Shown here piece after piece: positions 5,447 to 32,182 of a stretch of DNA of 41,376 nt. A program made the translations under genes and the position numbers. Each line of letters begins with the position of its first letter. The stretch's first letter is position 1. This DNA is from a virus. The stretch covers positions 1-41,376 of IMG/VR virus record IMGVR_UViG_3300025379_000764. One strand, written 5' to 3'. The notes under the pieces were generated by a model, which was not told the DNA's origin, ran no database searches, and worked only from the letters and a program-made list of their open reading frames with translations.

Positions 5447-5470
5447 CATATATTTTAATTGTGCTATTAT
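5443..5470 (+). promoter_or_regulatory. Sigma70-like promoter of the UV endonuclease gene
   Basis: TTGACA (5443-5448), 16-nt spacer, extended -10 TGCTATTAT (box 5465-5470). The expected start is at or next to the ATG at 5477, so the mRNA would be nearly leaderless. No ribosome site is visible. Confidence 0.75.
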
Positions 5471-5476
5471 AATGCT

Positions 5477-6867: not shown

Positions 6868-6886
6868 AATAAATATCATTATGATA
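6868..6886 (+). promoter_or_regulatory. Late promoter giving a nearly leaderless IscA-like mRNA
   Basis: AATAAATA lies at 6868-6875 and its expected start is at about 6881, which is the A of the ATG. TATCA (6874-6878) and TGATA (6882-6886) form a small stem over the start codon. No ribosome site is visible. Confidence 0.5.
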
Positions 6887-7222
6887 AAAATAACCGAATC
6901 AGCAAAGAATCATATAGTAAAAGTCCTTGAACAGATGGAAAAACCCTATCTAGTTTTCGGATTAAAAGGTGGCGGATGTGCCGGATTTGAATATTTTTGG
7001 GAACCAGCTGATCAAGATTTATATGAAAAGAATGGTGATCCCAAGAGAGATGAATTTATTGATTTGAACAACGAAAAAAAATTAATAGTAGATTGCACTA
7101 GCTTGCTTTATTTATTTGGCAGCACTATCGACTACAAGAGCGACTTTGTAAGCAGCAGTCTCGTAGTAGAAAACCCCAATGCTAAATCAAGTTGTGGGTG
7201 TGGCACTAGCATTGCTGTATAA
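6881..7222 (+). CDS. A-type iron-sulfur carrier (IscA/HesB family)
   Basis: IscA-type proteins hold and transfer Fe-S clusters. The family fold is complete: ITESAKNHI at the N-terminus, GLKGGGCAGFEY with Cys33, the DFVSSSLVVENPNAKSSCGCG end with Cys105 and Cys107. All three cluster-binding cysteines are conserved. The 113-aa length is normal, with a small insertion around residues 45-60. HesB-like genes are frequent in aquatic T4-like phages, where they may support Fe-S proteins during infection or, as some propose, virion assembly. It sits directly before the giant fiber gene (15 nt) and behind a late promoter, so the two may share a late transcript. Confidence 0.92.
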   Translation: MIKITESAKNHIVKVLEQMEKPYLVFGLKGGGCAGFEYFWEPADQDLYEKNGDPKRDEFIDLNNEKKLIVDCTSLLYLFGSTIDYKSDFVSSSLVVENPNAKSSCGCGTSIAV

Positions 7223-7237
7223 TAGGATGGAATTGAA

Positions 7238-10200
7238 ATGGTAAAAAAGATAATTGACGTAGGTATCGTAGGTAATGATGCTACAGGTGACCCAATTAGA
7301 GATGCGTTTTCTAAAACGAATGACAATTTCACTGAATTGTATGCGGCTCTTGGAAATTCCGGTGGATTGGCATTTACTGGATTAGTGCAAGCACCTAATC
7401 ATTTAATTGCAGATAACATACTAATTACCAATCATAATGGGACTTCTCTTTTACAAAAATCCCTCGTAGCTGGTTATGGTTTAGCGATAGACAATAGTGA
7501 TCCTACTAAAATAACTATCATCAATTCCGGAGCTAGGGTAGTATCAGATACCCAGCCAGCATTGGGAGGTAACCTAGATGCTAGAGGCAACATAATATAT
7601 AACTTGCCAGATCCTGCTGGCTATTCTATTATACAATCTAGTCTAGGTTTACCAAATCAAGATAGTTTTGCTATCTCTAAAAAATACGCTGCACAGAATT
7701 TCGTTCCATTAGCAGGAATGCCAGCTACAACAATCGCTAATCTCGTCATAGGACAGTTTTATGCTATCGCCAGCCTAGGCACAACGACTAATACACAGTG
7801 GAATATCATAGCAGGGACTGTTGGAATAACTTATGTAGTTGGCAGTAATTTCTATGCCGCCGTTACAGGCAGCGGATACGGTACAGGAACTGCTTACAAT
7901 AGTATGAGTGGGTTCTTAAGCGTTCCTCCCGGAGCCACGACTACCCAAGTTCCCCAGAGACAAGAAGTAATAGGTAAAGCAGGCGATACCATGACTGGTG
8001 CTTTGGTATTAGCAGCCGATCCTGATGCTAACAGCAGTCCTCTGCAAGCAGCTACTAAGAATTATGTAGATACTACTGCATTTGCTAGCCAAGCAGATTT
8101 TTTCGTAAGCTCCACAGGTGATGATTATCAACCAACTATTATCGAATCAAAAAAAGGTAGAGCTCTAGCTTATGCATTTAGGAGTCTAGCGAAAGCCTGC
8201 GCGGCAGCTGAAGCTGTACAGGCAGCAGCAGCGGAAGAATTAGGTCCGTATCAAAAGACTATAGTTTACACAGTGCAACAAGTAGCTACAGCTTCTACAG
8301 TAGCCGCTGTCACACAGATAGGCACGAGCAGCGGATATTATCTAGATATCACACACGGTGGGCTTGGAACAGATCCACGTGCTGGTGCGAACTATGTCAT
8401 AAGATCTGGTATATTACTGCAAGGTACTACTAGCGGTGCGTTGGCTATCATTGATTTTGTTGGCGACGTAACGACTGCACCAAATGTCGAGAGATATAAT
8501 ATACACTATATTAATAATATATCTTTTACTTTAGGTGAAAATTTAAGCTACGCCGATCCTGTCAAAAAGACACAGATTACCATACATATAGAAAGCGGTG
8601 AATACTACGAAGACTATCCAATAAGGATTCCGGAAAACGTATCTATAGTAGGCGACGAACTCCGTCGAGTTATCATACGACCAAAAGCAAATATAAGTGC
8701 CAGTAAATGGGCAAATACGTTCTTCCGCAGAGACATAACTATTGATTCAAGCAGCCCATTAACGCTGCTTACTCCGGTACCGGTGGGAGAATTTACTATC
8801 GGGTTCCCATATGTGATCACTTCACTAGGTTCAACAACTAATTCGCAATGGAACACAATAGCAGGTACTACTGGTGTTTTTTATGTCGTTGGCAGTAGTT
8901 TTGTAGCCGCAACTACGGGGAGTGTTTCAGGCAATGGAACAGCCTACAGTGTATATGGATATCATTATCTAACCGATCCCAGCAGGCCTATATATAGCAA
9001 AACCATATCCAATGCAGGTAGTTTCGCAAATGCACAAAAGATATTATATGCTAATAGGGCATTTATACAAGCAGAAACTATAGGTTATATTAACGACACA
9101 TATACTACTATCATAACTGGATCAGACTCACTCAGCAACAGTTTTACCTGCATATCAAACAGCAACCTTAATGTTGGTATGCCAATACGATTTGCCTCGC
9201 TATCAACTTATAGTACAGCGACAACTTCTGGCACCAATCGAATACAAGTTAAATCTACTAACGGAATGATAGAGGGTCAAACCGTACAGTTTAGCGGTAC
9301 TACTCTAGGTGGATTACTAACCGGATCTACATATTACATATTATCAGTAGTAGATAGCACAAATATCGTTGTAAGCACATCTTATCCAGGAGTAGCACTA
9401 TCATTAACTACTGATAGCGGCATAATGACTGTTACTGTAACGACTCCACTGATAGGAGGAGTAGATTCATCTACCACTTATTATGTCTTAGCTAAGATAG
9501 GATCAACACAGTTCACCATATCAAATACACTATCGGGATCGACTCCCGGAGCTATCTTTAACATAACTAGTTCAGATGTTGGCGCTGCTACTATGCAGAG
9601 CAATTTTTACTATAACCAATCTAATTATTCTCGTGATATAGGAATGCTAACCGATGCTATAGGCTTTGACCTCCTCTATGGAAAACAGACAAAAACATTA
9701 GAAGCAGCTATCTCATATTATTCAAGTGCTAGTGGGTTAGTAACTATTGGTGATCAATTACCTCAGACTAGCGCGGCGATAGCTTATATGGGAACACTAG
9801 TAGCATATGCTCTAGCAGAAAATGCTCCGCCAGCTTCTTACCAGCACACCCTAACACCAGTGCCGCAGGTTACATTCGCAAACATAAATTCAGAAGCGGG
9901 GGTATCTACAGCCGTTACCGGGCTAGTACAGCTCATGTTAGACATCGTAAACCAAGATGCTTCCTTCAATTTCCCCAAGAAAAACGATCAGATGGATGTT
10001 TTCTTGCTAAACAATGCTACCATACTTAGGATGTTTACTGGGCAAGGCCATGGCGGGTTTATGGGCGTGCTTGATCCTGAAGGACAGATACTTACTAAAT
10101 CACCGTTTATCGAAATCTGCGCTAGTTTCTCAAAAAGTATTAATGCACAGACATTCGCGGGCGGATTGTTTGTTGACGGGTTCGCTGGCAGCTTACCGTG

Positions 10201-13200
10201 TACCATTACTAGCCGTATCGATAATCAGACTTTAGTAGTATCATCTGCTGCTTTTACCATTAGGCCGCCGCAGACACCTTGTTCTTTCTATCTAAAAGGT
10301 ATAAGATTTGAAGTAGACTACGTAAGTGGATATGATTCCGTGGGTGGTACCCTAACTCTACACTTAAACAACAATACCCCAGATACGCTTGTCTATACAA
10401 ATTTATCAACCAGTTTATTAATAGCAAATACCTATCTAGACCTAATCACCGCTGGTAATAGATCCGTGGTCACTACACATTTTACTAATATCAATGACCT
10501 AGGTTACACCCTGATAGCAACCAACAATGCACTAATCGAAGCAGTTAGCTTGTTCACTTACTATAACTTCAGAGCATTCTACTCAACGAACGGAGCACAG
10601 ATACGAAGCCTTAACGGATCTAACTCTTATGGTATATATGGCATCACAGCTGAAGGTTCTGATCCAACAGAAGTACCTAGCCAAGCCTATCTCTACTATC
10701 CAATGACGCAGACTGCTGTCATCTATAAGCAGGGCATATATTCAGCTGTCGGTAATTCTGGAGACATAATATTTTATGTTACTAACTATTCGTATATTCC
10801 ATTCGCCCAGAGCGGATTAGAAATAGATCATAACGGTATTATAGTTGAATACGAAGTAAACAGTGTCACTACTGTAGATACTCCAGGTGTTATACAGCTA
10901 ACTCTAACTAGCAGTGCTAATAGTTCTATCTCAGTAGGTATAGCATCAAGCGGTCTGCTATATCCAGTTACAGATGGACAACCTGTAATCATAAGAGCTT
11001 TACAGAATTTCCGATTCAATAATGTATTAAATGTTAATCCAATTAGACCAAGTACTGCATTAGTATTTGATAACGATTTTGATGTTTATAGGGTATTACA
11101 ATACAACACCGTAAACTTACCTAGCCAAGAAGCTATATTAACTACTAGTACTTCTTATGGTTACGTAAAACTATTAGTTGATTTTACTGCGGGAACTGCA
11201 CCCGGCACTGGTCAGGCAGGCGATTATCAAATAAATGTGCAGCAGTTGCTCAGTAGCAACGACGTTAGCAGAGTGATAGGCAAGACCATAGCCTGGGGCA
11301 CGAGTGTACATACTGTAGTTGGTTACGAACCAAACACACTGACTGGCCAGAGTTATGCGCGATTGTTCCTCGATACTCCTCTGTCCAAGTCTCTATTAAA
11401 CAACACAGGATCTATAGTAATCACTAATTACGTGAGGAATACTAGCGGTGTAGTCACGATAACTGCTCCTAATCATGGACTTAGTTCTCTAAATTATGTC
11501 ACTATATCAAACACAGGTGTTGTAGGTATAGATACAGCAGGTCTATATGTAAAAGTAACTTATATTGATGCAAACAGTTTCAGTTATCAAAGCAGTTCGT
11601 TATCAGCATATGGTCCTTCATCGGGCGGTATAGTTGGTGGCATCAGCTTCGTTGGCGGTATCAGTGTTATAGATCTGAGAGCAGGTATGACCAACATACA
11701 GTACATACCAGTAACTACGATTTCTAGGACTAGTGGAATAGCCACCGTAGTCACCAAATATCCACATTATCTAGACAACACATCTACAGTTAATATAATT
11801 GGTTTGACTACTAGCACCGATAGCAATCCAGGATTCAATGCTACAAACGCAGCAGTAACATTCATAGATGAATATCGATTCACTTATACCAATGCAGGAT
11901 CCGATGTAGCCCCTACTACTGCCATAAGCGGTGTAGTGCAGCAGTCTACTTCGTTTGCTGTAACTTCGATATCAAGAAGCAATGGAATCGCGACAGTAAC
12001 TACGTCATCTGCGCACGGTTTGAGCCCAGGAGATGCTATAAGCATAGTTGATACTGATTTCAATCTAGTAATATACGGAACGTCTAGTTCCAATAATTCA
12101 ATAACTATCACACTTAATTATAGTGACGGCGGTGATAGATATTCTATCACTAATACCACCAGTGGGTTAGCAGTAGGCATGCCTATAGTATTCACAGGTG
12201 CCGGGTTAGTTGGCACCAATATCGTAAATGGTACTACTTATTATATTAAATCATTAGTTGGTACTACAGCTATCACTATAAGCACAACTCCTCCAACAGG
12301 TGCGTTTACTACGTTCATATTAGGTAATGTAGTTAATGCAGCAGCGACAGCAACGGCAGGTTACGGTTTTGGGATCTTAAATGTTAATCTGTTATCAGCG
12401 AGCGGTAACACGCTTACATATGAAAACCTAGCACCAAACCAAACAAGTGTAGGAACATTGACTCTAGCTAAGGCTATACCAATAAATCCAGTGATAGCTA
12501 GGATAACGCTTTATATTTCTCTCACAAGAGTAACTGGACACGATTTCTTATCTATTGGTACGGGCGGTTTCGCAGATACCAAATATCCAAACAATATATA
12601 TGGTGCTCCAAAGAATAGCTCTCAAACAGCAAACGAAGTTACAGAAATAGGCAATGGTAGATGTTTCTACGTTAGCACTGATCAAAATGGTAACTTTAGA
12701 GTAGGTCAATATTTCTCCGTAGATCAAGGAACAGGTGTTGTTAAGTTCGCGGCCAGTATAGTGCTCACTAATCTAGATGGTCTAGGATTTAAACGCGGTG
12801 TTGCTATATCATCATTTAGTGCAGACGATACTATGCTAGACGATGCTATCGACGAAGTGCCAACACAGTCTGCCGTAGTAGGATATGTAAATCGTCGATT
12901 AGGAATAAATCCAAGCGGCGTCGCGCTAACACTAGGACAGATAGGTCCTGGATTTATGCCATTAAATGGCGTAGTACCGATGGCTGCAAATCTAGATATC
13001 GGTAGCCATAGGATCGTTAATCTATCAGACCCCGTTTCTAATAGTGATGCCGCTACTAAAGCATTCGTTAACTCGTCAATAGCTAGCTTATTATCAACTG
13101 CTGGTGGTACAATGACCGGCAACTTAAATATGGGCGGTAAAAATATCACAAACGTTGGCGGATTAGACATGGCTAGTAACAAGATCACTAGCCTAGCTAC

Positions 13201-15985
13201 GCCCACTGCATCAACTGATGCTGCTAACAAATCATATGTAGATACTACTGTATCTTCTGTGAATACTCTGTATAAATTAAATGATACTGCCATAGAAGCT
13301 ACTCTAAGCTACACTGCATCTAGTGCAGCAGCACCAACGGGATCGGGACCTTATATCGTAGTGTTCGCTATTCCTACACAGTCTGTAGCACCGACTACAG
13401 GTATAGGATATACAGTATCTGGCAATAGCAATAGTTTATATAATATATCAGTTACAGCTACAGCAAGCACTGTTTCATCTATCACACTAAGCTATCCTAC
13501 AAATCCAGGAGCTTACGGAACAGGAACCACTACATTAACAACAAGTGGCTTAGCTAATGGAGATATTTTAGCTTGGAATGGCTCAGTTTGGGTGAATGCT
13601 GCACAATCAGGAAGCACTAGCTCAACATTCCAATCGATAGCTATAGCACAGATATCCAGAGCAAGCAATATAGCAACTGCGGTAACAGTTAGCGCACACG
13701 GATTAAACACAGGCGACAGAGTGACGATTGTTGGATTAGTCAGTAATAACAACACCGTTCCAGGTTTCAATGGCAGTTATGTTATAACTAGGGTCGATAC
13801 TGTTACCTTTACGTATCTAAATTATGGTTCTGATTTTGCTAATGCGACAGCAGTAACAGGCACAGCTTTAGCTACATCTGGAACTAATAATTTCGTATTA
13901 TTATCTTCTACGCTAAACATTTCTGTAAATTCTCCGATAGTCTTCACAGGTAGCACTATAGGAAATATCCTAGCTAAACAGCAGTATTGGGTGAAGAGCA
14001 TAACTACACAGACAGTTATACCTATAGCAGAAGTAGCTAAATCTGGATATACAGTTACTATCAATACAGGTGCAGTACCATTTACACTAAATTCGTTTAC
14101 TAGCAAGATACTACAAGGCGATAATACCTATAGAGTTACATTTGCGATTAACGTTAATCCGGCGCCGGCAGCCGGTGTTAGCTATCTAATCCTCGGTAAC
14201 AGTAACTCAAACTACAATGGTACTTTTGTAGCATACAGCGCAAGCACTGTTAGTATAACACTAACATATCCAACAGATCCTGGCGTCTACGGTGTAGGTA
14301 CTACTACAGCACAATATCTAGCACCACACGGATTAACGAATGGTCAGGTAGTCACTATAAGTGGAACGAGTATAGTTGACCAAACAAACGCTACTGTAAC
14401 TGTAATAAACGGAACACAATTTACTTACACACAGAGTACTTCTGCTACTATAACAGGTACTATTGTTACAGGTATCGCTACACCACAACCACAGATAACC
14501 TTATCGTCAACTCCTGGAGGAGCTGTAATAACACAAGTAGCAGCTAGCGGCACTATGTCTTTCACAGCTGTAGTTGATGGATTTGCACAGATATTCAGCA
14601 ATTCGATCAACAGTGGTGTGATAACCAACAGCATGATAAGTGCAATCGCTGCTATTGACCAAAGCAAGCTTAACCTTTCAAAGGCAACTGCGGGGTTAAA
14701 CACAGGACCGAGCCCAGTAACGTTTGGTATAGCTGCATTTAGCAGCAATAATTTCACTGCAAGCAGCGGATTTATCAGTCTAGCATCTAATGGTATAACT
14801 TTATCAAACCTAGCAGCTATAAACTCAGGAAACGTATTAGGTAACATCAGTGGATCGACAGGAAATGTTAATAGCGTACCAGTAGATACCGCATCAACTG
14901 CTAATACGCTAGTATTAAGAGATAGTAGTGGAAACTTCAGCGCAGGCATTATTACTGCTTCACTAAGTGGTAATGCTTCAACAGCCACTAATTTAGCTGG
15001 AACACAACAGCCAAATTATTTCTATGCAGGTCCAGCAAGCGGGACTACTCCTAATTCCGCTGGATGGAGGAGCATAGTAGCAGCCGATCTACCAACAGCT
15101 ATAGCAGGTACAAGCGGTACAGGGTCTAAGGGAGCAGTCATACCAGACGGTTCAACTATAACTATCACTAACGGTGTTATAAGTTCGATAACAGGAGCCG
15201 CTGCTGCTGGATCACTGACTGGTGCTACATTAGCAAGCAATGTATTGGCTTCTAGCTTAACTAGTGTCGGAACATTGAGCTCGGTATTAATAACGGGCAA
15301 TGTTGGTATTGGAACTACTTCTCCTCAGAGGAAAGTAGATATTGAACAACTTAGTACCGATTATCAAATGAGAATTGGAGATACTGGTGGAAATTATTAT
15401 GATATAGGTAGAAATACCACCGATGGGTTATTACATTTTTACGGTAACCAGGCCGCAGCAAGTGGATATGTGTTTGATACTGTGAATGGCGAACGTATGC
15501 GCATCAACTCCAGCGGTAGCGTTCTCCCTGGCGCAAACAATACACAAAATCTAGGTAGCAGTAGCCTCTCTTGGGGTACCGTTTATGGTAACGCAACTTC
15601 AGCTAACTACGCTGACTTGGCCGAAAATTACGAAGGCGACAAGTCTTATGAAGTAGGCACCGTAGTTATGATCGGTGGTGAGAAAGAAGTCACGCAGGCC
15701 ATAGGATTTGGTACTACAAAGGTAGCAGGTGTTGTTTCTGAAAATCCAGCACATTTAATGAACGCAAACTGTCCAGGTATAAAAGTTCCAGTCGCACTAA
15801 CAGGACGAGTACCTTGTAAGGTAGTTGGTAAGATTGCCAAGGGTGATCTACTAGTAGTAGGACTTGTGCCAGGAGTAGCACAGTCTAGCACTGATCCAAA
15901 ACCAGGCAGTATCATAGGTAAGGCATTGGCAGATTATGATAGCGATAGGATTGGATTAATTGAGGTGCTAGTAGGTAAGCATTGA
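7238..15985 (+). CDS. Giant modular tail fiber/adhesin, 2915 aa
   Basis: The start ATG follows AGGATGG. The N-terminal module (residues 3-37, DVGIVGNDATGDPIRDAF...NDNFTELY) recurs in the 434-aa fiber and is probably the virion-docking end. Further on are a fiber repeat GDTMTGALVLAADPD...AATKNYVD (about 249-280); a beta-helix-like region (about 283-520) with FVSSTGDD, YAFRSLAKA and IHIESGEYYEDYPIRIPENVSIVGD, like pectate-lyase-fold spikes; many beta modules (520-1890); a second fiber-repeat block with TMTGNLNMGG and AANKSYVD (about 1900-2007); more modules; NVGIGTTSPQRKVDI (about 2688); and a C-terminal domain (about 2788-2915) starting YADLAENYEGD that resembles the Peptidase_G2/intramolecular-chaperone type of end domain. 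It is almost free of Cys except near the C-terminus. It probably binds the host surface. Long minus-strand ORFs in it are shadows. Confidence 0.88.
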   Translation: MVKKIIDVGIVGNDATGDPIRDAFSKTNDNFTELYAALGNSGGLAFTGLVQAPNHLIADNILITNHNGTSLLQKSLVAGYGLAIDNSDPTKITIINSGARVVSDTQPALGGNLDARGNIIYNLPDPAGYSIIQSSLGLPNQDSFAISKKYAAQNFVPLAGMPATTIANLVIGQFYAIASLGTTTNTQWNIIAGTVGITYVVGSNFYAAVTGSGYGTGTAYNSMSGFLSVPPGATTTQVPQRQEVIGKAGDTMTGALVLAADPDANSSPLQAATKNYVDTTAFASQADFFVSSTGDDYQPTIIESKKGRALAYAFRSLAKACAAAEAVQAAAAEELGPYQKTIVYTVQQVATASTVAAVTQIGTSSGYYLDITHGGLGTDPRAGANYVIRSGILLQGTTSGALAIIDFVGDVTTAPNVERYNIHYINNISFTLGENLSYADPVKKTQITIHIESGEYYEDYPIRIPENVSIVGDELRRVIIRPKANISASKWANTFFRRDITIDSSSPLTLLTPVPVGEFTIGFPYVITSLGSTTNSQWNTIAGTTGVFYVVGSSFVAATTGSVSGNGTAYSVYGYHYLTDPSRPIYSKTISNAGSFANAQKILYANRAFIQAETIGYINDTYTTIITGSDSLSNSFTCISNSNLNVGMPIRFASLSTYSTATTSGTNRIQVKSTNGMIEGQTVQFSGTTLGGLLTGSTYYILSVVDSTNIVVSTSYPGVALSLTTDSGIMTVTVTTPLIGGVDSSTTYYVLAKIGSTQFTISNTLSGSTPGAIFNITSSDVGAATMQSNFYYNQSNYSRDIGMLTDAIGFDLLYGKQTKTLEAAISYYSSASGLVTIGDQLPQTSAAIAYMGTLVAYALAENAPPASYQHTLTPVPQVTFANINSEAGVSTAVTGLVQLMLDIVNQDASFNFPKKNDQMDVFLLNNATILRMFTGQGHGGFMGVLDPEGQILTKSPFIEICASFSKSINAQTFAGGLFVDGFAGSLPCTITSRIDNQTLVVSSAAFTIRPPQTPCSFYLKGIRFEVDYVSGYDSVGGTLTLHLNNNTPDTLVYTNLSTSLLIANTYLDLITAGNRSVVTTHFTNINDLGYTLIATNNALIEAVSLFTYYNFRAFYSTNGAQIRSLNGSNSYGIYGITAEGSDPTEVPSQAYLYYPMTQTAVIYKQGIYSAVGNSGDIIFYVTNYSYIPFAQSGLEIDHNGIIVEYEVNSVTTVDTPGVIQLTLTSSANSSISVGIASSGLLYPVTDGQPVIIRALQNFRFNNVLNVNPIRPSTALVFDNDFDVYRVLQYNTVNLPSQEAILTTSTSYGYVKLLVDFTAGTAPGTGQAGDYQINVQQLLSSNDVSRVIGKTIAWGTSVHTVVGYEPNTLTGQSYARLFLDTPLSKSLLNNTGSIVITNYVRNTSGVVTITAPNHGLSSLNYVTISNTGVVGIDTAGLYVKVTYIDANSFSYQSSSLSAYGPSSGGIVGGISFVGGISVIDLRAGMTNIQYIPVTTISRTSGIATVVTKYPHYLDNTSTVNIIGLTTSTDSNPGFNATNAAVTFIDEYRFTYTNAGSDVAPTTAISGVVQQSTSFAVTSISRSNGIATVTTSSAHGLSPGDAISIVDTDFNLVIYGTSSSNNSITITLNYSDGGDRYSITNTTSGLAVGMPIVFTGAGLVGTNIVNGTTYYIKSLVGTTAITISTTPPTGAFTTFILGNVVNAAATATAGYGFGILNVNLLSASGNTLTYENLAPNQTSVGTLTLAKAIPINPVIARITLYISLTRVTGHDFLSIGTGGFADTKYPNNIYGAPKNSSQTANEVTEIGNGRCFYVSTDQNGNFRVGQYFSVDQGTGVVKFAASIVLTNLDGLGFKRGVAISSFSADDTMLDDAIDEVPTQSAVVGYVNRRLGINPSGVALTLGQIGPGFMPLNGVVPMAANLDIGSHRIVNLSDPVSNSDAATKAFVNSSIASLLSTAGGTMTGNLNMGGKNITNVGGLDMASNKITSLATPTASTDAANKSYVDTTVSSVNTLYKLNDTAIEATLSYTASSAAAPTGSGPYIVVFAIPTQSVAPTTGIGYTVSGNSNSLYNISVTATASTVSSITLSYPTNPGAYGTGTTTLTTSGLANGDILAWNGSVWVNAAQSGSTSSTFQSIAIAQISRASNIATAVTVSAHGLNTGDRVTIVGLVSNNNTVPGFNGSYVITRVDTVTFTYLNYGSDFANATAVTGTALATSGTNNFVLLSSTLNISVNSPIVFTGSTIGNILAKQQYWVKSITTQTVIPIAEVAKSGYTVTINTGAVPFTLNSFTSKILQGDNTYRVTFAINVNPAPAAGVSYLILGNSNSNYNGTFVAYSASTVSITLTYPTDPGVYGVGTTTAQYLAPHGLTNGQVVTISGTSIVDQTNATVTVINGTQFTYTQSTSATITGTIVTGIATPQPQITLSSTPGGAVITQVAASGTMSFTAVVDGFAQIFSNSINSGVITNSMISAIAAIDQSKLNLSKATAGLNTGPSPVTFGIAAFSSNNFTASSGFISLASNGITLSNLAAINSGNVLGNISGSTGNVNSVPVDTASTANTLVLRDSSGNFSAGIITASLSGNASTATNLAGTQQPNYFYAGPASGTTPNSAGWRSIVAADLPTAIAGTSGTGSKGAVIPDGSTITITNGVISSITGAAAAGSLTGATLASNVLASSLTSVGTLSSVLITGNVGIGTTSPQRKVDIEQLSTDYQMRIGDTGGNYYDIGRNTTDGLLHFYGNQAAASGYVFDTVNGERMRINSSGSVLPGANNTQNLGSSSLSWGTVYGNATSANYADLAENYEGDKSYEVGTVVMIGGEKEVTQAIGFGTTKVAGVVSENPAHLMNANCPGIKVPVALTGRVPCKVVGKIAKGDLLVVGLVPGVAQSSTDPKPGSIIGKALADYDSDRIGLIEVLVGKH
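7741..8946 (+). repeat. Coding repeat A in the giant fiber (two copies)
   Basis: Copies at about 7741-7898 and 8788-8946 encode the same roughly 53-residue module with SLGTTTNTQWN or SLGSTTNSQWN, IAGT, Y-V-VGS-F and a closing GTAY. The second copy lies inside the beta-helix-like region, so the module was inserted or moved as a unit. Confidence 0.8.
11422..14440 (+). repeat. Coding repeat B, 'ISR..GIATV...HGL' modules (about five copies)
   Basis: Related beta modules start near 11422, 11708, 11953, 13636 and 14320. Shared features are 'SR-x-x-GIATV', 'HGL-x-x-G-D', 'V-x-IVG' and, in the longer copies, 'PGFN...FTY-N-GSD'. Copies are diverged, which argues for old duplication or exchange between phages. 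Confidence 0.7.
13330..14310 (+). repeat. Coding repeat C in the giant fiber (two copies)
   Basis: About 13330-13545 and 14115-14310 encode the same roughly 65-residue module: 'Y-V-FAI', 'GNSNS-YN', 'AS-V-SITL-YPT-PG-YG-GTTT'. Confidence 0.75.
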
Positions 15986-16020
15986 TCTACTATAAATATT
16001 AACAAGGAGATCGATCAATG
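15980..16020 (+). promoter_or_regulatory. Consensus T4 late promoter with inverted repeat over the start codon
   Basis: A perfect TATAAATA lies at 15991-15998, expected start about 16004. CATTGATC (15980-15987) pairs perfectly with GATCAATG (16013-16020), which contains the ATG of the 434-aa fiber gene. The 5' arm lies upstream of the promoter, in the stop region of the giant fiber gene, so read-through RNA contains it and late RNA does not. AAGGAG remains just inside the late transcript. Confidence 0.8.
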
Positions 16021-17322
16021 TCTTTAGAATTAGTAAATGTTGGAAATGTTGTAAATGATGGCACAGGTGACGATCTCTATGCCGCATTTACTAAAGTTAA
16101 CAACAATTTCCAACATTTGGATTTCGTTAACGCACAAAATAACACAGCTTCAAATTTAGGAGCTGGCGTAGGACTATATGCAACTAAACTAGGGAGTGAT
16201 CTCAGATTTAAAAGCCTAGTAGCCGATACTGGTATAACGATTACTGGTGAAGCCAACGATATAAAAATTCGAGGTACTAATAGCGTTGGCGTTATAGTAG
16301 GAGATACGGGAACATATACTGCTTCAGCTCCATTAAGCAGTATTAATTTCCGTGGTAGTGGTGGTATAACAGTTAGTGTTTCAGGAAATACTATAACATT
16401 TAATCAGTCATTGCGTGTATCTAGTGATCCCAATCCTAGCCTAGGTGGTAATCTAAATCTCAACAACCATAATATAAGTGGCACAGGTACTATAACTGCT
16501 AGCTCATTTACTGGAACGTTGACAGGAAATGTTACAGGTAATATTACAGGTAATGTTACAGGAAACCTAACTGGTTTAGTCAATAATATCAATGTAGCAC
16601 AGCTTGCTAAACAAACAAGAGATTTTGATTTTGGCCCTATTGCTCCATATAATATAAATCCCCAAGACGATTTCATCGATTGGTTGAAATACAATATAAA
16701 AATAGACTTAGGATCATTTAATGATCCAATGACTACTATAGGAAATGGTACAGGCGGCGGCAGTAGCACCCAAGTAAATGCAGATTGGAATGCAGTCTCA
16801 GGAGTAGCTGCTATCTTAAACAAACCATCTATACCTAGTCCATATTCTTTACCAACTGCAACACCTTCCACGCTAGGTGGAGTTAAGGTCGATAATAAAA
16901 CTATCGTGATAGATGGCGCGGGTATTATAAGCACTCCAGGATTAGGTTCTAGGACAACAGTTTCAGTAGTTACTAGTTCTCTCGCAGCGGGTGCAAGCAC
17001 TATTGCATACGTAACAGTTGGAAAAAGCTATGTTCTTTATAGCATAGGTACCTCTTCAGCAGCTTGGGTCGTAGTATATGCAAATACAGCTACGAGTTCG
17101 GCAGATAGTACTAGGATGATCACTACAGATCCTACACCAGGATCAGGTGTGATGGCAGAAGGTATCACTACATCAAATAGCACTCAATATTTTACCCCAG
17201 CGGTAGTATGTTACAATAACGAATCACCTGTAACGACTAGCATACCTCTGAAGATCTATAACAATGGAAATAGTCCAGCAGCTATCACAGTTACCTTGAC
17301 CTACATGGTATTAGAAATATAA
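16018..17322 (+). CDS. Fiber-like virion protein with docking module, 434 aa
   Basis: The N-terminal residues (VNVGNVVNDGTGDDLYAAF, then NNFQHLDF) match the first module of the 2915-aa fiber, so both probably attach to the virion at the same kind of site. The middle has GGNLNLNNHNISGTGTI and a Gly/Thr/Asn run of short repeats (TGNVTGNITGN around residues 165-190), typical of trimeric fiber shafts. The C-terminal 130 residues (about 300-434) look like a compact beta domain (SSLAAGASTIAYVTVGKSY...AAITVTLTYMVLEI) that could be the receptor-binding tip. It is a late gene with a gated start (see 15980). The peptidase gene follows after 1 nt. Confidence 0.82.
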   Translation: MSLELVNVGNVVNDGTGDDLYAAFTKVNNNFQHLDFVNAQNNTASNLGAGVGLYATKLGSDLRFKSLVADTGITITGEANDIKIRGTNSVGVIVGDTGTYTASAPLSSINFRGSGGITVSVSGNTITFNQSLRVSSDPNPSLGGNLNLNNHNISGTGTITASSFTGTLTGNVTGNITGNVTGNLTGLVNNINVAQLAKQTRDFDFGPIAPYNINPQDDFIDWLKYNIKIDLGSFNDPMTTIGNGTGGGSSTQVNADWNAVSGVAAILNKPSIPSPYSLPTATPSTLGGVKVDNKTIVIDGAGIISTPGLGSRTTVSVVTSSLAAGASTIAYVTVGKSYVLYSIGTSSAAWVVVYANTATSSADSTRMITTDPTPGSGVMAEGITTSNSTQYFTPAVVCYNNESPVTTSIPLKIYNNGNSPAAITVTLTYMVLEI

Positions 17323-17323
17323 T

Positions 17324-18547
17324 ATGGATTCTAACAGAACATTATTAAAACAAATAGAGTTAGCTGATCCTATAACAGGAGCGATACCTACTTCTATTCC
17401 ATATCCGGGACTGCTCACCCCGCCACAGATAGCTAAAGCATATAATCTACCTAACGCGACAGGTTACGGAGTAAAGATAGGTATCATTAGCCTAGGTGGT
17501 GGATTTTTACAGAACGATCTTAACTTGGCATTTAATGATTTACGTAATGCCGGATTGGTGAACGGAGCCACTCCTACTATAAAAAAAGTAGTATTAGATG
17601 GTGTGAGTGGAATATTTGATCCAAATGACGGAGCTAGTGGTGAAAATACTGTAGATATTTTTTGCACTGCTACTATGGCTCCTGCTGCTGATATTACCAT
17701 TTATATTGGAGGTTCGTGGGAAAGCCCAATAAATCAAGCGATAGCAGATGGTTGTCATATTTTAACTATCAGTTGGGCAACAAGCGAGTCTACATTTTTA
17801 GAATCTATATTTGAAACTGCTGCTGCTAACAAGATAGCAGTTTGTGTAGCGTCTGGTGACTGGGGTTCGATTTTTCCGTATACAGGTTCGCTATCTGTTT
17901 GTTATCCGTCGTCTAGTCCTAATGTTATATCGATCGGTGGAACAAAACTGTTATTAAACAGCAACAACACAAGGGCAAGCGAAATAGATGACGATCGAGA
18001 TCCAAACTTCGGTTCTACTTGGGGCGGTGGTGGTGGCATAAGCACGCTATTCTCACTACCTTCATGGCAAACAGGATTACACTACACACCAATAACGGGC
18101 GGAGTGACCGGTAGTCCTACTCCATTAACTATGAGAGGTCTACCAGATATCTCAGCACCTATGAGTGTTTATGCTTTGTATTTTAATGGGGGGTTAGCAG
18201 GCTTTGGCGGAACTAGCCTGGCGAGCCCAGTAGTAGCGGGCATACTTGCTCGATTCCAACAGCTAACTGGTGTGCAGAGATCTAGCAGCGAATATAATAC
18301 AATATTTTACTCTAATCCTAATGCATTTTATGATATAACAGTAGGAACTAATAATACGGAGATATCTGATGGATATGCAGGAACCGTAGGTTGGGATGCT
18401 GTCACTGGACTCGGAGCACCTACAGGATCCAGCATTTATAAAGCAATACATATAGGTAATACTTTTCCAAAATCAAATAGAGGATTCAGGCCAGCAGCTG
18501 GACAAGCATATCCTCGAATCAGAATGTTCGCAGGCGTATCTAGATAA
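17324..18547 (+). CDS. Sedolisin-type serine-carboxyl peptidase (family S53)
   Basis: S53 peptidases use a Glu-Asp-Ser site and usually work at low pH. All catalytic residues are visible: E107 and D111 (GENTVD), D179 (VASGDWGS, oxyanion Asp) and S298 (GFGGTSLASPV). The C-terminal calcium-site segments FYDIT and GWDAVTGLGAP are also present. The protein starts close to the mature catalytic domain (LTPPQIAKAYNLP at about residue 27), so the roughly 150-200-aa propeptide of cellular sedolisins is absent, and no signal peptide is seen. It begins 1 nt after the 434-aa fiber gene, so it is translated in the fiber operon. The inference is a virion-borne peptidase that degrades a surface protein or trims a fiber. 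The minus ORFs are shadows. Confidence 0.9.
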   Translation: MDSNRTLLKQIELADPITGAIPTSIPYPGLLTPPQIAKAYNLPNATGYGVKIGIISLGGGFLQNDLNLAFNDLRNAGLVNGATPTIKKVVLDGVSGIFDPNDGASGENTVDIFCTATMAPAADITIYIGGSWESPINQAIADGCHILTISWATSESTFLESIFETAAANKIAVCVASGDWGSIFPYTGSLSVCYPSSSPNVISIGGTKLLLNSNNTRASEIDDDRDPNFGSTWGGGGGISTLFSLPSWQTGLHYTPITGGVTGSPTPLTMRGLPDISAPMSVYALYFNGGLAGFGGTSLASPVVAGILARFQQLTGVQRSSSEYNTIFYSNPNAFYDITVGTNNTEISDGYAGTVGWDAVTGLGAPTGSSIYKAIHIGNTFPKSNRGFRPAAGQAYPRIRMFAGVSR

Positions 18548-18555
18548 GATATTAC

Positions 18556-18583
18556 GATAAATATTGCATAGGATAGCAATATG
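18556..18583 (+). promoter_or_regulatory. Late promoter with hairpin around ribosome site and start codon
   Basis: GATAAATA lies at 18556-18563, expected start about 18569. ATATTGC (18561-18567) pairs with GCAATAT (18576-18582); the loop ATAGGATA holds the ribosome site and the 3' arm includes the first bases of the ATG. Late RNA lacks the 5' arm. Confidence 0.72.
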
Positions 18584-21500
18584 ACAGATAAACCTTTATG
18601 GAACATTAAATCAGAAACAGTCTTGGCAACTATATATGCCGGAGTCGCAGTTAATTTACCTCTACCGGTAACTAATCCACCAGTAGAGCAAACAGCACCG
18701 TATCCTCCGCATAACGTACCTGTGGAAATTTACAAATTTACAGATTATAAAAATGCCAACATTGCATCTGCCCATACAAACAGATTCCAAGGAAATGCTA
18801 CAGCATTCGCTGACATTAATGATCTGTATGTGAGCAGCAACGGATTACCTGCAACTACACCAGCAAGCTCTAATTATAGTCTATATATTGCTACTGCTAC
18901 AAATTATGTTTTTCGAATCCCTAGACAGAGGAACATACAAGATACAAAAAATCCTATAATGACGCAACAGTCTATAGGAGTAGCTATCGACGGGGTTCCG
19001 TTTTGTGCTCCTAGGTCCGGAAAGACACACAATTTCAATAATGTTATCTATACAGAAAATGATATATTAAATCCTGTAAATTTCCCTACATCGGACGGAT
19101 CAGCGTTAGTAGGAGCAGATGGTGCGTATTTTTATAATTCAGATCCTAAATTACTCTACACTAAAAATCCAGAACAGCACAGTCCAATAATAGGATATGC
19201 ATTTGACGGGTGGCCTATTTACGGACCTTACGGATTTACTAATACTAACGGTACTGGTGGAATATCATTAATGACTTCCAGCTATCAATTGAAGACGAGT
19301 TTGAGATCAAACAACACTGATCCCGATGGCACTTATATAGAAGACTACCTATATGTAGAAGGGTCGGGTACACTTGATCGATATAACGGTAGAGATTGCA
19401 TAACTCCCGAATATCCAAACGGGGTATATGCATATTTTGTTACTGTTAATCCCTATAATACCAACGAACCTGTTTATCCATATATAATAGGACCTTATTA
19501 TAAAAGCAAGCCTGTTAAACCAAATGGCAATTTTACCTATCCCGGTAGTTTGACTATTTCGGTTATAAGTGCCGAGTTGCCCCCTGGGCTGAGGATAAGT
19601 GGAACTAATGTAGTCGGGACTGCTTATTCTATAAAAGTCGATACTAAATTCAAATTCGTTTTGAGGGCACAGAATAGCATAGGATTCTCAGATAAAACAC
19701 TGGTTATCGCTGTCACTGCTCAATCTGGTTTGCTTTGGGAAACCCCAGCAGGTTCTCTCCCAGTAGGTAATAACAAACTATTTCCCATACCTGTTCAATT
19801 TGATCCTAATAGATTAGGCCCTGATCTAAAATTAAGCAATTATAATCTAACTGTTTCTGCACCTAAGCCTATCACTGATGGTAGTGAACCTAGCGCACTA
19901 TGCACTTATAACATATTAAACGGTGTCAAGGTGATTTTTAGCGTCATAGTAGATAAAGCGGTTAAAGATGCATTTACTGGAATCGGTATAGCAGGAGCAG
20001 GAATGAATCTAACTACTTGGGTAGGTAATACTATCGATAGTTTTGGATTCTGGGACGATGGGTCCGCATACGGAAACGACAATAACATCTACTACCCAGC
20101 AGGAACTTTTCCTATCATATATGGAGGCGATATAGTTGACCTAGCAGTTGATAGGCAGAACAATCTCATCTGGATGAGGGTAAATGGTGGAAGTTGGAAT
20201 GGCGATGCTTCGCAAGATCCTGTAACGGCAACAGGTGGTATCGATATTTCGTTTATGACCGCGGCTGTTTTTTATCCAGCCGTTAGTCCATATAACAATG
20301 GATCAAGTGCAGGTCAGTTTACAGTAAAGCAATTACCTAGTTATAATATACCTTATGGATATATATTTGTCGGAAACGAAGTCATAGGTGACGTTTACTA
20401 TGTATTAGACAATGGATATGTTAATTATCAGCTATCAGCTGTTGACAAAAACCTAGCACTTTCGCAAGATCTAAAATTCTACATACCTCCCAACGGTGGT
20501 TATTTACCTGGCGGACTAACCTTGAGCTCGAGCGGAGTGATATCTGGATTTACTAAACCTGTATTTTCAGTTATATCAAGCAATGTCAACGGAAACTACG
20601 ACGAGAACTTTTATGATGTATCAGCGTATGATTACGGTATACCACCAAACAACGGGTTTGATAGCTTCATATATGATATTGAAAATTACGATTTTTATTA
20701 CAATATCAACATACCTAAAAAACTAAACAGATATTATCAATTTATAATCAGGGCAACTGATGGATATTATTACGAAGATAGAAAATTTAAGATATATGTA
20801 GTAGGCGACGATCATCTACGTGCAGATACTACATTAATACAAGCGGGTGCTAACATCTATAGAGCAGATGCCACTTATCTGAGGAAACCAATCTGGTTAA
20901 CTCCAAACTTCCTAGGAACTAGGCGAGCCAATAATTATGTAACTATACCTACTAACATTTACATATCTGATAGTATAGTGGGAGTAATAACCTATATTTT
21001 AGATCGTACTAACGACGACGGATCTATCAGCAGATTACCTCCCGGACTTGAGCTAGATGAACAGACAGGAACTATATACGGATCTATACCATATCAGCCT
21101 GCTATATCACAGACTTACAAATTCACCATAAGAGCATATAGGTATGATCCAATAAAGGGAGACACTGTAGATACTCCTAGGACATTTACCCTAGATGTGA
21201 TAGGTGAAGTAGAATCTATCATATCATTTACCACTAGCGGAGATATAGGTACGATAAATGCACAGTTGGTCAGCAATCTTAGTGTATCGGCGACTACTAA
21301 AATACAAAATACCACATTAGTTTATACATTAGTTAATGGTAAATTACCACCAGGATTAACATTATTCAATGATGGAACCATTCAAGGAAAAATAAATCAA
21401 TTTTATAATCCTTCGATCGGTCTTGGATTGACTACGATAGATATGGGAACTGCTACATTTGATCATAGCACTACTCGTTTAGATAGACAATTTATATTCA

Positions 21501-22432
21501 CTATAAAAGCTGCTGATCAATTAGGACTCAGTGCTACTACTAAAACATTTAGCATAGAAGTAGCTACACCCTATAAGCTAAACTATAGCAACATATATGT
21601 TAAGCCATTCTTAGATCAAAACACAAGAGTTAATGTGTTAGCTTTCTTGAACAATATCAATATCTTTACTCCTAATCTAATATATAGGCCCAGTGATAGT
21701 AAATTTGGTGTGCAAAAAACATTACAAATGTTACTTTATCCGGGCATAGAAACTACCGATGCTGCAAAATATGTAGCAGCATTTGGTAGGAGCTACAGGA
21801 AACAGTTTAGATTGGGAGATATTAAAAAAGCTATTGCTAAAACTCCAGGAACTAATACAGTAATTTATGAAGTAATATATATAGAAGTTTTTGACAACCA
21901 AGAAATCGGAACGACTTCTATGAAAAGCGTCGTAGATATAAACAATAGAAATTATCCTATCACTGTCAACCAAGGGCGTAGAGATGCGATCGATGACACA
22001 TTTGGATCTAATATAGCTACGATAGAATCAATGGATGTATATAAGCGATATCATCTATCAGATAGAGCTATGAGCGCAGATTATAACGGCCAAAGAGTGA
22101 GTGATAGAAATAAATCAACTATCTTTGGAAACAGTGTCACAAATATGAGGAATAATATCAGACAAGTAGGAGATAGCGAAAGGGATTATCTCCCCCTATG
22201 GATGCAGACTCCCCAGACGTTTAGCGGTATAGTACAGAGCTTTACTAAGGCTATACCTCTTTGTTATTGTGTTCCTGGCGGTGCGGATGCTGTGATCCTA
22301 AACATACAGCACAGCGGATTTGATTTCAAATCTATAAACTACACTATAGACAGAGCCATTATAGACAGTGTCACTGGTTATGTAGGTGATAAATATCTTA
22401 TGTTCCCAGCGAGAGAGGTTATAAATGGTTAG
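18581..22432 (+). CDS. YHYH-domain and Ig-like tail protein, 1283 aa
   Basis: Residues about 100-310 form a YHYH domain: IGVAIDGVPF, SPIIGYAFDGWPIYGPYG, LDRYNGRDCITPEYPNG, YAYFVTV and YPYIIGPYY. Several putative Ig (He_PIG-like) modules follow, marked by LPPGLRISG (about 335), GGLTLSSSGVISG (about 645), LPPGLELDEQTGTIYGSI (about 815) and LPPGLTLFNDGTIQG (about 925). A beta-sandwich/lectin-like segment lies at about 400-590. The last 290 residues (from about 990, PFLDQNTRVNVL) look like a distinct conserved end domain, with RRDAIDDTF and CYCVPGG. YHYH is known mainly from secreted proteins of bacteria and algae; its role is unknown. The protein is late-expressed and probably a large tail appendage that binds surface polymers. 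Confidence 0.82.
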   Translation: MTDKPLWNIKSETVLATIYAGVAVNLPLPVTNPPVEQTAPYPPHNVPVEIYKFTDYKNANIASAHTNRFQGNATAFADINDLYVSSNGLPATTPASSNYSLYIATATNYVFRIPRQRNIQDTKNPIMTQQSIGVAIDGVPFCAPRSGKTHNFNNVIYTENDILNPVNFPTSDGSALVGADGAYFYNSDPKLLYTKNPEQHSPIIGYAFDGWPIYGPYGFTNTNGTGGISLMTSSYQLKTSLRSNNTDPDGTYIEDYLYVEGSGTLDRYNGRDCITPEYPNGVYAYFVTVNPYNTNEPVYPYIIGPYYKSKPVKPNGNFTYPGSLTISVISAELPPGLRISGTNVVGTAYSIKVDTKFKFVLRAQNSIGFSDKTLVIAVTAQSGLLWETPAGSLPVGNNKLFPIPVQFDPNRLGPDLKLSNYNLTVSAPKPITDGSEPSALCTYNILNGVKVIFSVIVDKAVKDAFTGIGIAGAGMNLTTWVGNTIDSFGFWDDGSAYGNDNNIYYPAGTFPIIYGGDIVDLAVDRQNNLIWMRVNGGSWNGDASQDPVTATGGIDISFMTAAVFYPAVSPYNNGSSAGQFTVKQLPSYNIPYGYIFVGNEVIGDVYYVLDNGYVNYQLSAVDKNLALSQDLKFYIPPNGGYLPGGLTLSSSGVISGFTKPVFSVISSNVNGNYDENFYDVSAYDYGIPPNNGFDSFIYDIENYDFYYNINIPKKLNRYYQFIIRATDGYYYEDRKFKIYVVGDDHLRADTTLIQAGANIYRADATYLRKPIWLTPNFLGTRRANNYVTIPTNIYISDSIVGVITYILDRTNDDGSISRLPPGLELDEQTGTIYGSIPYQPAISQTYKFTIRAYRYDPIKGDTVDTPRTFTLDVIGEVESIISFTTSGDIGTINAQLVSNLSVSATTKIQNTTLVYTLVNGKLPPGLTLFNDGTIQGKINQFYNPSIGLGLTTIDMGTATFDHSTTRLDRQFIFTIKAADQLGLSATTKTFSIEVATPYKLNYSNIYVKPFLDQNTRVNVLAFLNNINIFTPNLIYRPSDSKFGVQKTLQMLLYPGIETTDAAKYVAAFGRSYRKQFRLGDIKKAIAKTPGTNTVIYEVIYIEVFDNQEIGTTSMKSVVDINNRNYPITVNQGRRDAIDDTFGSNIATIESMDVYKRYHLSDRAMSADYNGQRVSDRNKSTIFGNSVTNMRNNIRQVGDSERDYLPLWMQTPQTFSGIVQSFTKAIPLCYCVPGGADAVILNIQHSGFDFKSINYTIDRAIIDSVTGYVGDKYLMFPAREVING

Positions 22433-24715: not shown

Positions 24716-25105
24716 ATGGCAACACGACAAGTTTATAGATCGATGCAGGGCAAAGTAGTTGATATGGGTCAGCTAATAGCCAAGAATGAATTAATACCAG
24801 CCGTTGGTAATTCGAAAGTTAATGCCCGAGGAGATGAGCTCGGACCTGGTGGCAAGATCGTGCGAACCAGAGAAGAAATAATGGCAGAATATTACAGAGA
24901 CACGAACAATTCCTTGCCAGATTCTGTACCAAGCAGAGCTAGGACTACTCCGGTGCCTAAGCAGCCTGATCCAGTAGCAGCGATCACAGCACCTACACAT
25001 ACTGCTATACTTGCAGTCAGTGACCTATCTCCGGATGAATTAGAATTCCATGATCCAGAACCATTACCTACAGAAATAACCAAGAGGAAGAGGACCGGCG
25101 AATAA
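24716..25105 (+). CDS. Conserved phage protein, 129 aa
   Basis: A clear AGGAG precedes the ATG. The conserved N-terminal half contains GKVVDMGQL, VNARGDELGPGGKI and TREEIMAEYY, a pattern I recall from unassigned proteins of aquatic T4-like phages. The C-terminal half is Pro/Thr/Ala-rich and probably disordered (RARTTPVPKQPDPVAA), ending in KRKRTGE. An ordered head with a flexible basic tail suits a minor virion or scaffold-type protein, but there is no direct evidence. Its stop overlaps the next start. Confidence 0.65.
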   Translation: MATRQVYRSMQGKVVDMGQLIAKNELIPAVGNSKVNARGDELGPGGKIVRTREEIMAEYYRDTNNSLPDSVPSRARTTPVPKQPDPVAAITAPTHTAILAVSDLSPDELEFHDPEPLPTEITKRKRTGE

Positions 25106-25470
25106 TGAGTGAAGATACACTTTTAGTAAGAGCTATACGAGATAGTATCATCGTCAGTGATATGTTCTTTGGAGATATGCGTACAACATTTGGTATCATT
25201 ATTCCAAACGACGATGGCAAGAGCTACGGAATCAAACCTCGCTGGGGCAAGGTATATTCCGTCGGTCCTGAACAAAAAGATGTAGTTATCGGAGATTGGG
25301 TATTAATAGAACATGGACGTTGGACTAGGGGGTTTGATTTCGATCTAGATGATGGATCAAAAATTACCTTGCGAAGGATAGATGCAGATGCTATACTCTT
25401 AATTAGTGATGAAAGACCTTCTGATGTGCAGGTCACGCCAGACAGAATCTTAGATTTACACACTAATTAA
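25105..25470 (+). CDS. GroES-like co-chaperonin (gp31 analogue)
   Basis: The 121-aa protein follows the GroES beta-barrel order: an N-terminal strand with RAIRDSIIVSDMFF, a mobile-loop-like stretch MRTTFGIIIPNDDGKS, then KPRWGKVYSVGPEQKDVVIGDWVLIEHGRWT, matching the 'GxVxxVGxG...GDxVL' core, and a final strand RIDADAILLI. T4 gp31 replaces GroES so that GroEL can fold the major capsid protein. Hydrophobic residues in the loop (FGIII) suit GroEL docking. Sequence distance is large, so the call rests on pattern. It overlaps the upstream gene by one base. Confidence 0.75.
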   Translation: MSEDTLLVRAIRDSIIVSDMFFGDMRTTFGIIIPNDDGKSYGIKPRWGKVYSVGPEQKDVVIGDWVLIEHGRWTRGFDFDLDDGSKITLRRIDADAILLISDERPSDVQVTPDRILDLHTN

Positions 25471-25907: not shown

Positions 25908-27356
25908 GTGTCAACATATGACAGCACGAAAGAGCTATTAGAAAAAATTAGTCCTACAATGTGTGCTGCAAAGTGGAATCAACCCACTTTGCATCTACAT
26001 AATGGACAAACACATAGCTGTCATCATCCAAATACACATCCTATACATTTAGGAGAAATAAAAGACGATCCCGCAGCATTAGTTAATAGCGGATATCTAA
26101 AAACACAACGCAGAGAGATGGTCGAAGGTAAAAGGCCACAAGAATGCAATTACTGCTGGAACATAGAAAACACCAACGGAATTAGTGATAGAGTATTAAA
26201 AAGCAAATACGATACTCCTCTAGACAAATTAAATGAACTAGTTAACACAGATCCAGAACAATTATATACAAAGAATTTTAATCCTACTTACATAGAAATT
26301 AGTTTCGATTATACTTGTAATTTAAAATGTGCATATTGCGGACCCACTATAAGCAGTGCTTGGCATCAAGAGATATTAGAACACGGTGGCTACCCTACAA
26401 CTATTCCTCACTATGATCTAGAATCTTACAAATCAAAACTTCCAATACTCAAGAGAGATCATAACCCTTATGTGGATGCTTTTTGGAAATGGTTTCCAGA
26501 ATTAAAAAATGATCTCAAGATACTTAGAGTAACAGGCGGCGAACCTCTGTTAAGCAAAGATATGTGGAAACTGTTTGATAACCTAATAGAAGGATCAAAC
26601 ACAGATATGACTTTTGCTGTTAATACTAATCTAATGCAAGATCGAGATATCATAGATAAACTAATCAATAGGATCAATAAATTAGAAGGTAAAGTAAGAA
26701 ACTTTGAATTGTATACTTCTATAGATACAGGTATAGCCAAACACGCAGAATATATTAGATACGGACTGGATTATAATATCTTTCAATCAAATCTAGAGAG
26801 AGTACTAGATGAAGTTAAATGGCCCATAAAAGTTTCCAATATGTGTACTGTAACTAATCTAAGTTCTGTTGGGTTAAAAGACATCATAAGATATTTTTTC
26901 CTGCTGAGGGGCGAATATGCTGGAACACACAAAGTAGCTAATCACAATTCATATCTACGATATCCTAATTGGTTAGATCTGCGAGTAGGTAGAGATACAT
27001 CTATACATTATCTAGAAAAAACTAAAAAATACTACGAAAAGATAATGATAGAAAACAAAGCTAGAGACATAAAAAGTCTCAAGATAGACTTCTTAAACGG
27101 AAAGAGTGTGACGTTCCCAGGAAATGAAGATTATGACTTGTCTAATATTTTCCCCTATTGGAGCAAAAACGATATGTCTAAGCAGATTGATAGACTGATA
27201 GGATTTGCTAAGATTCCGTTACCCGAATCGCAAGAAACTGTTATGCATCGAGATTTTTATAAATTCTGGACAGAATACGATCGACGCAAAGGAACGGACT
27301 TCTGTAAAACTTTTCCGGAGTTTGCAGACTTTTATCATAAATGCAAGCAATTATAG
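25908..27356 (+). CDS. Radical SAM protein (twitch/SPASM type), 482 aa
   Basis: It starts with GTG directly after the MazG stop. The radical SAM cluster motif is C137-NLK-C141-AY-C144 in SFDYTCNLKCAYCG, followed by RVTGGEPLLSKD (SAM-binding GGEP, about residue 210). Before it, a Cys/His-rich region (SCHHPNTHPIHLG and QECNYCW) resembles the auxiliary-cluster end of twitch/SPASM proteins, here placed N-terminally. Such 'twitch domain-containing radical SAM' proteins are widespread in aquatic T4-like phages; the substrate is unknown. The nearby IscA-like protein could supply clusters. The C-terminal 130 residues show no recognised domain. Confidence 0.88.
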   Translation: MSTYDSTKELLEKISPTMCAAKWNQPTLHLHNGQTHSCHHPNTHPIHLGEIKDDPAALVNSGYLKTQRREMVEGKRPQECNYCWNIENTNGISDRVLKSKYDTPLDKLNELVNTDPEQLYTKNFNPTYIEISFDYTCNLKCAYCGPTISSAWHQEILEHGGYPTTIPHYDLESYKSKLPILKRDHNPYVDAFWKWFPELKNDLKILRVTGGEPLLSKDMWKLFDNLIEGSNTDMTFAVNTNLMQDRDIIDKLINRINKLEGKVRNFELYTSIDTGIAKHAEYIRYGLDYNIFQSNLERVLDEVKWPIKVSNMCTVTNLSSVGLKDIIRYFFLLRGEYAGTHKVANHNSYLRYPNWLDLRVGRDTSIHYLEKTKKYYEKIMIENKARDIKSLKIDFLNGKSVTFPGNEDYDLSNIFPYWSKNDMSKQIDRLIGFAKIPLPESQETVMHRDFYKFWTEYDRRKGTDFCKTFPEFADFYHKCKQL

Positions 27357-32167: not shown

Positions 32168-32182
32168 TTGGAGAAAAAAAGT

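Follow-up and report, generated by a model that had tools for sequence, protein, structure and literature searches.

The window analysed here, the whole 41,376-nucleotide stretch of IMG/VR virus record IMGVR_UViG_3300025379_000764, carries on its plus strand a fiber gene of 434 aa (16018..17322), a gene encoding a sedolisin (S53) peptidase of 407 aa without a propeptide (17324..18547), and a gene encoding a 1283-aa protein with YHYH and He_PIG (Ig-like) domains (18581..22432). A single nucleotide separates the stop codon of the fiber ORF from the protease gene, as stated in the preliminary description of this DNA. The fiber gene was assigned from PHROG matches at both ends of its product, whose N-terminal ~34 aa are similar to T4-like baseplate wedge or tail fiber connectors (phrog_677, 2.8e-4, and phrog_958, 4.8e-4, both over aa 1-34) and whose C-terminus matches phrog_9627 (1.6e-27), with a middle part that varies among relatives. 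The N-terminal ~100 aa of another fiber-like protein of the window (ORF 7238-15985, 2915 aa) are 34% identical to those of this fiber, which suggests that the two share an attachment site.

The protease matched kumamolisin (1gt9, E 7.7e-34) and Pseudomonas sedolisin (1ga1, E 1.6e-16) in a phmmer search of the PDB, its sole Pfam entry being the broad clan model PF00082 (1.1e-10). Alignment with 1gt9 places the catalytic domain at aa 28-375 (17405..18448). An AlphaFold model (pLDDT 82, pTM 0.86) has the sedolisin-type subtilisin-like fold and matches kumamolisin-As 1zvk with an E value of 9.5e-25 and a TMt of 0.85; the best 17 PDB structure matches are all S53 proteins (TMt <=0.85), and subtilisins score lower. 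The viral structures in the BFVD that the model matches best are S53-like and come from giant viruses (Homavirus, Barrevirus) rather than tailed phages. The Ser-Glu-Asp triad and the oxyanion Asp are represented by S298 (18215-18217), E107 (17642-17644), D111 (17654-17656) and D179 (17858-17860), corresponding to S278, E78, D82 and D164 of kumamolisin, so that the alignment of the catalytic residues, proposed earlier as a structural check, was borne out. The Asp-His-Ser triad of S8 peptidases was not found, the residues aligning with the S53 Glu/Asp/Ser set instead. All four catalytic residues are unchanged across 23 aligned phage sequences, and they are also invariant in eight forms that carry a propeptide (pro-forms).

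The earlier observation that the catalytic residues and the calcium-site segments are kept is correct apart from two minor departures. Of the five residues of the calcium site near the C-terminus, D337, I338, G356 and D358 are kept, but the position of kumamolisin G334 is occupied by T354; since G334 presumably binds calcium through its backbone carbonyl, the side chain at T354 may matter little. Among second-shell residues, kumamolisin E32 is replaced by S56, and W129 is kept as W151. The dN/dS values between protease relatives (0.03-0.25, with synonymous sites near saturation in the wider pairs) show, at the level of coding sequence, that the gene is under purifying selection. Judged from the alignments and the predicted fold, ORF 17324-18547 is a genuine S53 sedolisin, beyond chance.

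The absence of a propeptide, also noted previously, was confirmed in that the catalytic domain begins after only ~27 residues and no match to Pro-kuma_activ (PF09286) was found in the protein; likewise, no hydrophobic N-terminal signal for secretion is apparent, as judged by eye only. The sedolisins of this genomic slot occur in two forms, which differ in where the catalytic core begins, at residue 1-29 or at residue 127-177. Pro-kuma_activ matches of 1e-10 to 1e-14 were obtained in same-slot relatives, and all seven long forms scanned carry this domain. A tree of 67 sequences groups the short forms in one clade (100/99), with the long forms as its sister (92/88). A single loss of the propeptide would be the simplest reading, with a root that is not firm, the cellular outgroup being distant and its placement unsure. 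The missing propeptide is thus true of the clade of this gene but not of phage sedolisins in general, as the sister clade keeps Pro-kuma_activ, and the enzyme can be compared between the two clades in naturally occurring forms that have the propeptide or lack it.

A single-sequence search of IMG/VR rendered 18 sedolisin loci, and a search with an alignment of relatives rendered 41; with a pro-sedolisin alignment, 147 stretches were confirmed and 78 loci were kept. All sedolisin loci are uncultivated contigs of up to 354 kb, and two of them (L001 and L002) come from the phage of the window itself (100%) and are not independent. Among 50,697 records of isolated phages no S53 protein of either form was found. 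A close cellular source of the phage sedolisin was also sought, but the best cellular relatives in genome_contigs are just 27-29% identical, with the top ones in Ktedonobacteria. In L018 (9971-11237) the sedolisin frame is split in two and in L037 (6885-7925) it is shortened, while close relatives are intact; either sequencing error or real decay could account for these frames. The pro-sedolisins of L205 (3989-6571) and L222 (3812-7210) have long extra parts and neither of the two elements, socket and plug, described below; that of L205 seems to have a ~200-aa insertion ahead of the last calcium-site segment.

A search of phage genomes for S53 genes beside fibers had been suggested. At these 41 loci, the sedolisin is nearly always preceded immediately by a gene whose product ends in the same C-terminal domain of ~120 aa, which we call the socket (aa 310-434 of the fiber, 16945..17319), and the two genes remain adjacent although other neighbours change. 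The loci departing from this pattern are L038-L040 and L014/L016, the latter having a sedolisin joined to an Ig-domain protein. The socket was delimited from conservation across loci and from an AlphaFold model of a 158-aa fragment (16846-17319), in which a confident beta-sandwich has a pLDDT >90 over most of fragment aa 37-155; a known fold was sought for it, but a PDB structure search gave no match at E<=1e-3. The socket is present in 48 INPHARED records, nearly all of Synechococcus phages, and a search of IMG/VR with its profile gave no fewer than 581 loci. Of the 80 best, a sample biased toward sockets resembling that of the window, 72 have a protease gene downstream (S8 in 57, S53 in 15) and eight have neither. 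The intergenic distance is exactly 1 nt at 142 of 179 socket-protease junctions. By its distribution the socket is, in our reading, a general fiber domain, because it is also found with no downstream protease (L050, L051, L052 and the first copy of L056) and in one case (L069) within a longer fiber; the latter case was considered as a natural socket-protease fusion and rejected for that reason. A second type of protein stands behind the socket fibers of cyanophages in L050 (3802-6099), L052 (3986-6316) and L056 (391-2694); these proteins have 765-776 aa, no protease match and no plug, and end in ARTT or ARIS.

A virion-mounted protease had been described as an unusual tail enzyme. The slot itself is not unique to this phage: in isolated Synechococcus phages it holds subtilisins (S8) that bear a plug and usually start 1 nt after the socket gene. 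An S8 gene directly follows the socket gene in S-CREM1, S-WAM2, S-RSM4, S-H38, S-H9-1, ACG-2014e, ACG-2014h and S-CAM1. These cyanophage subtilisins are annotated (phrog_9158 and others) with no function assigned. A relative in S-SCSM1 (S-SCSM1_228), consisting of an S8 domain and laminin-G domains with neither plug nor socket, was flagged "(virion protein)" by the depositors. There are 48 such flags in the S-SCSM1 record, and they probably track detection in virions, because the terminases and several hub genes are unflagged; 45 proteins of S-SCSM1 were detected by mass spectrometry (PMC9602691), which is not in exact agreement with the 48 flags.

What we call the plug is the C-terminal tail of the protease (aa 382-407, 18467..18544), which contains the motif R389-P-A-A-G-Q-A-Y-P-R398 (18488-18517) and in the AlphaFold model has low confidence at aa 384-386 and 392-407. 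The consensus RP[TS][TS]G[QA][VT][YWF]PR is found behind the catalytic domain in both S53 and S8 proteins. Plug sequences were picked by the G, aromatic, P and R positions, and the Arg, Pro and two Thr/Ser positions outside these selection criteria also agree between the two families. Counting distinct proteins, with near-copies removed at 90% and L015, L023, L198 and L208 taken as plug-bearing from their sequences, the plug was present in 57 of 58 S53 proteins with a socket and in none of five without it (Fisher p 9e-7, a value that is indicative, as kinship was only partly removed). Among S8 proteins with a socket it was found in 30 of 32, and it is absent from the S8 relatives in P-SSM2, S-SCSM1 and S-TIM54; the gene upstream has another terminal domain in P-SSM2 and S-SCSM1. 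None of 664 other ORF ends contains the motif G..[YFW]PR. As for departures, YAR replaces YPR in L189 and L206, and L070 and L135 have no plug though the socket is present. A terminal IFPR in L014 was considered as a plug without a socket and rejected as chance, as it sits at the end of a fused baseplate-type part. Because plug and socket co-occur in two protease families, we strongly infer that the protease would dock physically, through its plug, on the socket of the fiber.

The gene that follows the protease matches PF14240 (YHYH, 5.1e-39), He_PIG and phrog_2885, a baseplate wedge subunit (9.8e-44). Its YHYH domain is common to cyanophage baseplate-wedge proteins, and by this region the product appears baseplate-wedge-like. 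The fusion partners of the sedolisins of L014/L016 (1413 aa in all) and L219 are homologous to the C-terminal half of this protein (blastp E 2e-45 and 2e-34). Fused sedolisins with no socket occur both without the propeptide (L014) and with it (L219). Since the partners of L014 and L219 are 38% identical, the two may come from one fusion event or from two.

We give a probability of about 0.6 to the reading that the protease is an active S53 enzyme and a lasting part of the virion, docked by its plug on the fiber socket and cutting host surface protein. The endopeptidase, predicted to be active, would be made together with the preceding fiber; docking of the RPxxGxxYPR plug on the beta-sandwich at the fiber C-terminus would bring the enzyme to the end of a fiber that is attached to the baseplate, where at cell contact it would cut a host surface protein (S-layer, outer-membrane or appendage) and so open a path to the receptor. 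A surface substrate is suggested by the position of the enzyme. Weighing against this reading, the analysis turned up no virion proteome of a phage with an S53 gene, the socket also occurs with no protease behind it, a few proteases beside a socket have an altered plug or none, and the flagged S-SCSM1 protein has neither element. The preliminary description had proposed a virion-mounted protease that either removes host surface protein or matures fibers; mounting on the fiber is well supported by the co-occurrence of plug and socket and by the baseplate-type fusions, but the choice between the two roles is left to preference, and host-surface digestion is the one that we favour. Sedolisins are acid, calcium-bound enzymes, and it may be therefore, as a conjecture, that the enzyme without a propeptide is kept in check by the neutral pH and low calcium inside the cell, becoming active outside. 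Somewhat short of even odds, and thus tentative, is the broader proposal of an interchangeable enzyme mount, in which the socket and a ~10-residue RPxxGxx[YWF]PR plug would carry a subtilisin, a pro-sedolisin or a propeptide-free sedolisin as cargo, the last of these being silenced by neutral pH and low calcium instead of a zymogen domain.

It could also be the case that, in a single event during assembly, the protease cleaves a virion protein, either the neighbouring fiber or a different one, its tail being a handle for recognition of the fiber. The tight coupling of the protease to the fiber gene would fit such a maturation role, and one-step fiber cleavage by dedicated domains is known from the S74 peptidases. 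We consider it unlikely, however, as the socket is conserved to the very end of the fiber with no conserved cleavage site seen, the slot is common to two different protease families, many slot proteases bear long extra C-terminal domains, and the baseplate-type fusion suggests a lasting part; moreover, an acid protease would perform poorly in the cytoplasm.

Host-surface digestion at adsorption has also to be weighed against the protease riding on the virion and acting after entry or at lysis, for example on envelope or cytoplasmic proteins. The acid optimum of the sedolisin family counts against this, attachment to a fiber on the outside would keep the protease outside the cell, and no secretion or entry signal was seen in it, all of which makes such a role quite improbable, even though phage virions can bring enzymes for the host cell, as discussed in PMC9602691 and PMC10665884. 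Very improbable, in turn, is that the S53 domain is a dormant fold, namely a receptor-binding head that no longer cuts, given the invariance of the four catalytic residues in both short and pro-forms and the fact that the S8 proteins of the slot are full-length peptidase matches. In its favour, enzyme folds are often redeployed as binding domains at phage tips, and the propeptide, which normally assists the folding of sedolisins, is absent here.

The phage protease shares with kumamolisin and sedolisin (MEROPS S53) the fold, the Glu/Asp/Ser set with the oxyanion Asp, and most of the calcium site, with ~36% identity to kumamolisin over aligned residues; in contrast, it has neither the propeptide nor a visible secretion signal, and the C-terminal plug and the fiber operon are phage features. 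The T4-like cyanophage subtilisins (phrog_9158, phrog_15006) have the same slot, fiber domain, usual 1-nt spacing and plug, but they are S8 rather than S53 and carry an extension at the N-terminus resembling an I9-type propeptide, without Pfam confirmation. The IMG/VR pro-sedolisins are alike in socket, plug and the kind of their catalytic residues, and differ in their propeptide and in forming the sister clade. Phage depolymerases have polysaccharide as their substrate and in most cases belong to the spike, and gp38 only binds. The genes of tail depolymerases and gp38-type adhesins also adjoin fiber genes, the resemblance to gp38 being purely positional: its gene follows the fiber gene and the protein is at the fiber tip (PMC12892980). 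A literature search outside most subscription journals turned up no description of tailed-phage sedolisins, of phrog_9158 or of the plug and socket pair.

Should the tail indeed carry the protease, these phages would digest host protein, not sugar, in adsorption, a possibility that has seen little testing to date; the presence of the module in the isolated Synechococcus phages S-H38, S-CREM1 and S-WAM2 makes laboratory testing possible. The plug, if docking is true, would be a short portable means to attach proteins to a phage fiber.

The window is a fragment of a T4-like phage. At its left end there is a tRNA-Val gene (anticodon tac, 33-109), and upstream of the fiber genes are those for a PTPS-type enzyme (3400-3906), a UvdE UV endonuclease (5459-6487) and an A-type iron-sulphur carrier (6881-7222). 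A radical SAM protein of 482 aa (PF04055, 5e-7) is encoded at 25908-27356. Three products are chaperone-like: one with a weak Cpn10 match (25105-25470; 4.3e-4, just under the Pfam cut-off), a full DnaJ with J domain and C-terminal domain (31245-32120), and a ClpA/B-type double AAA+ ATPase (32168-34390, phrog_4871).
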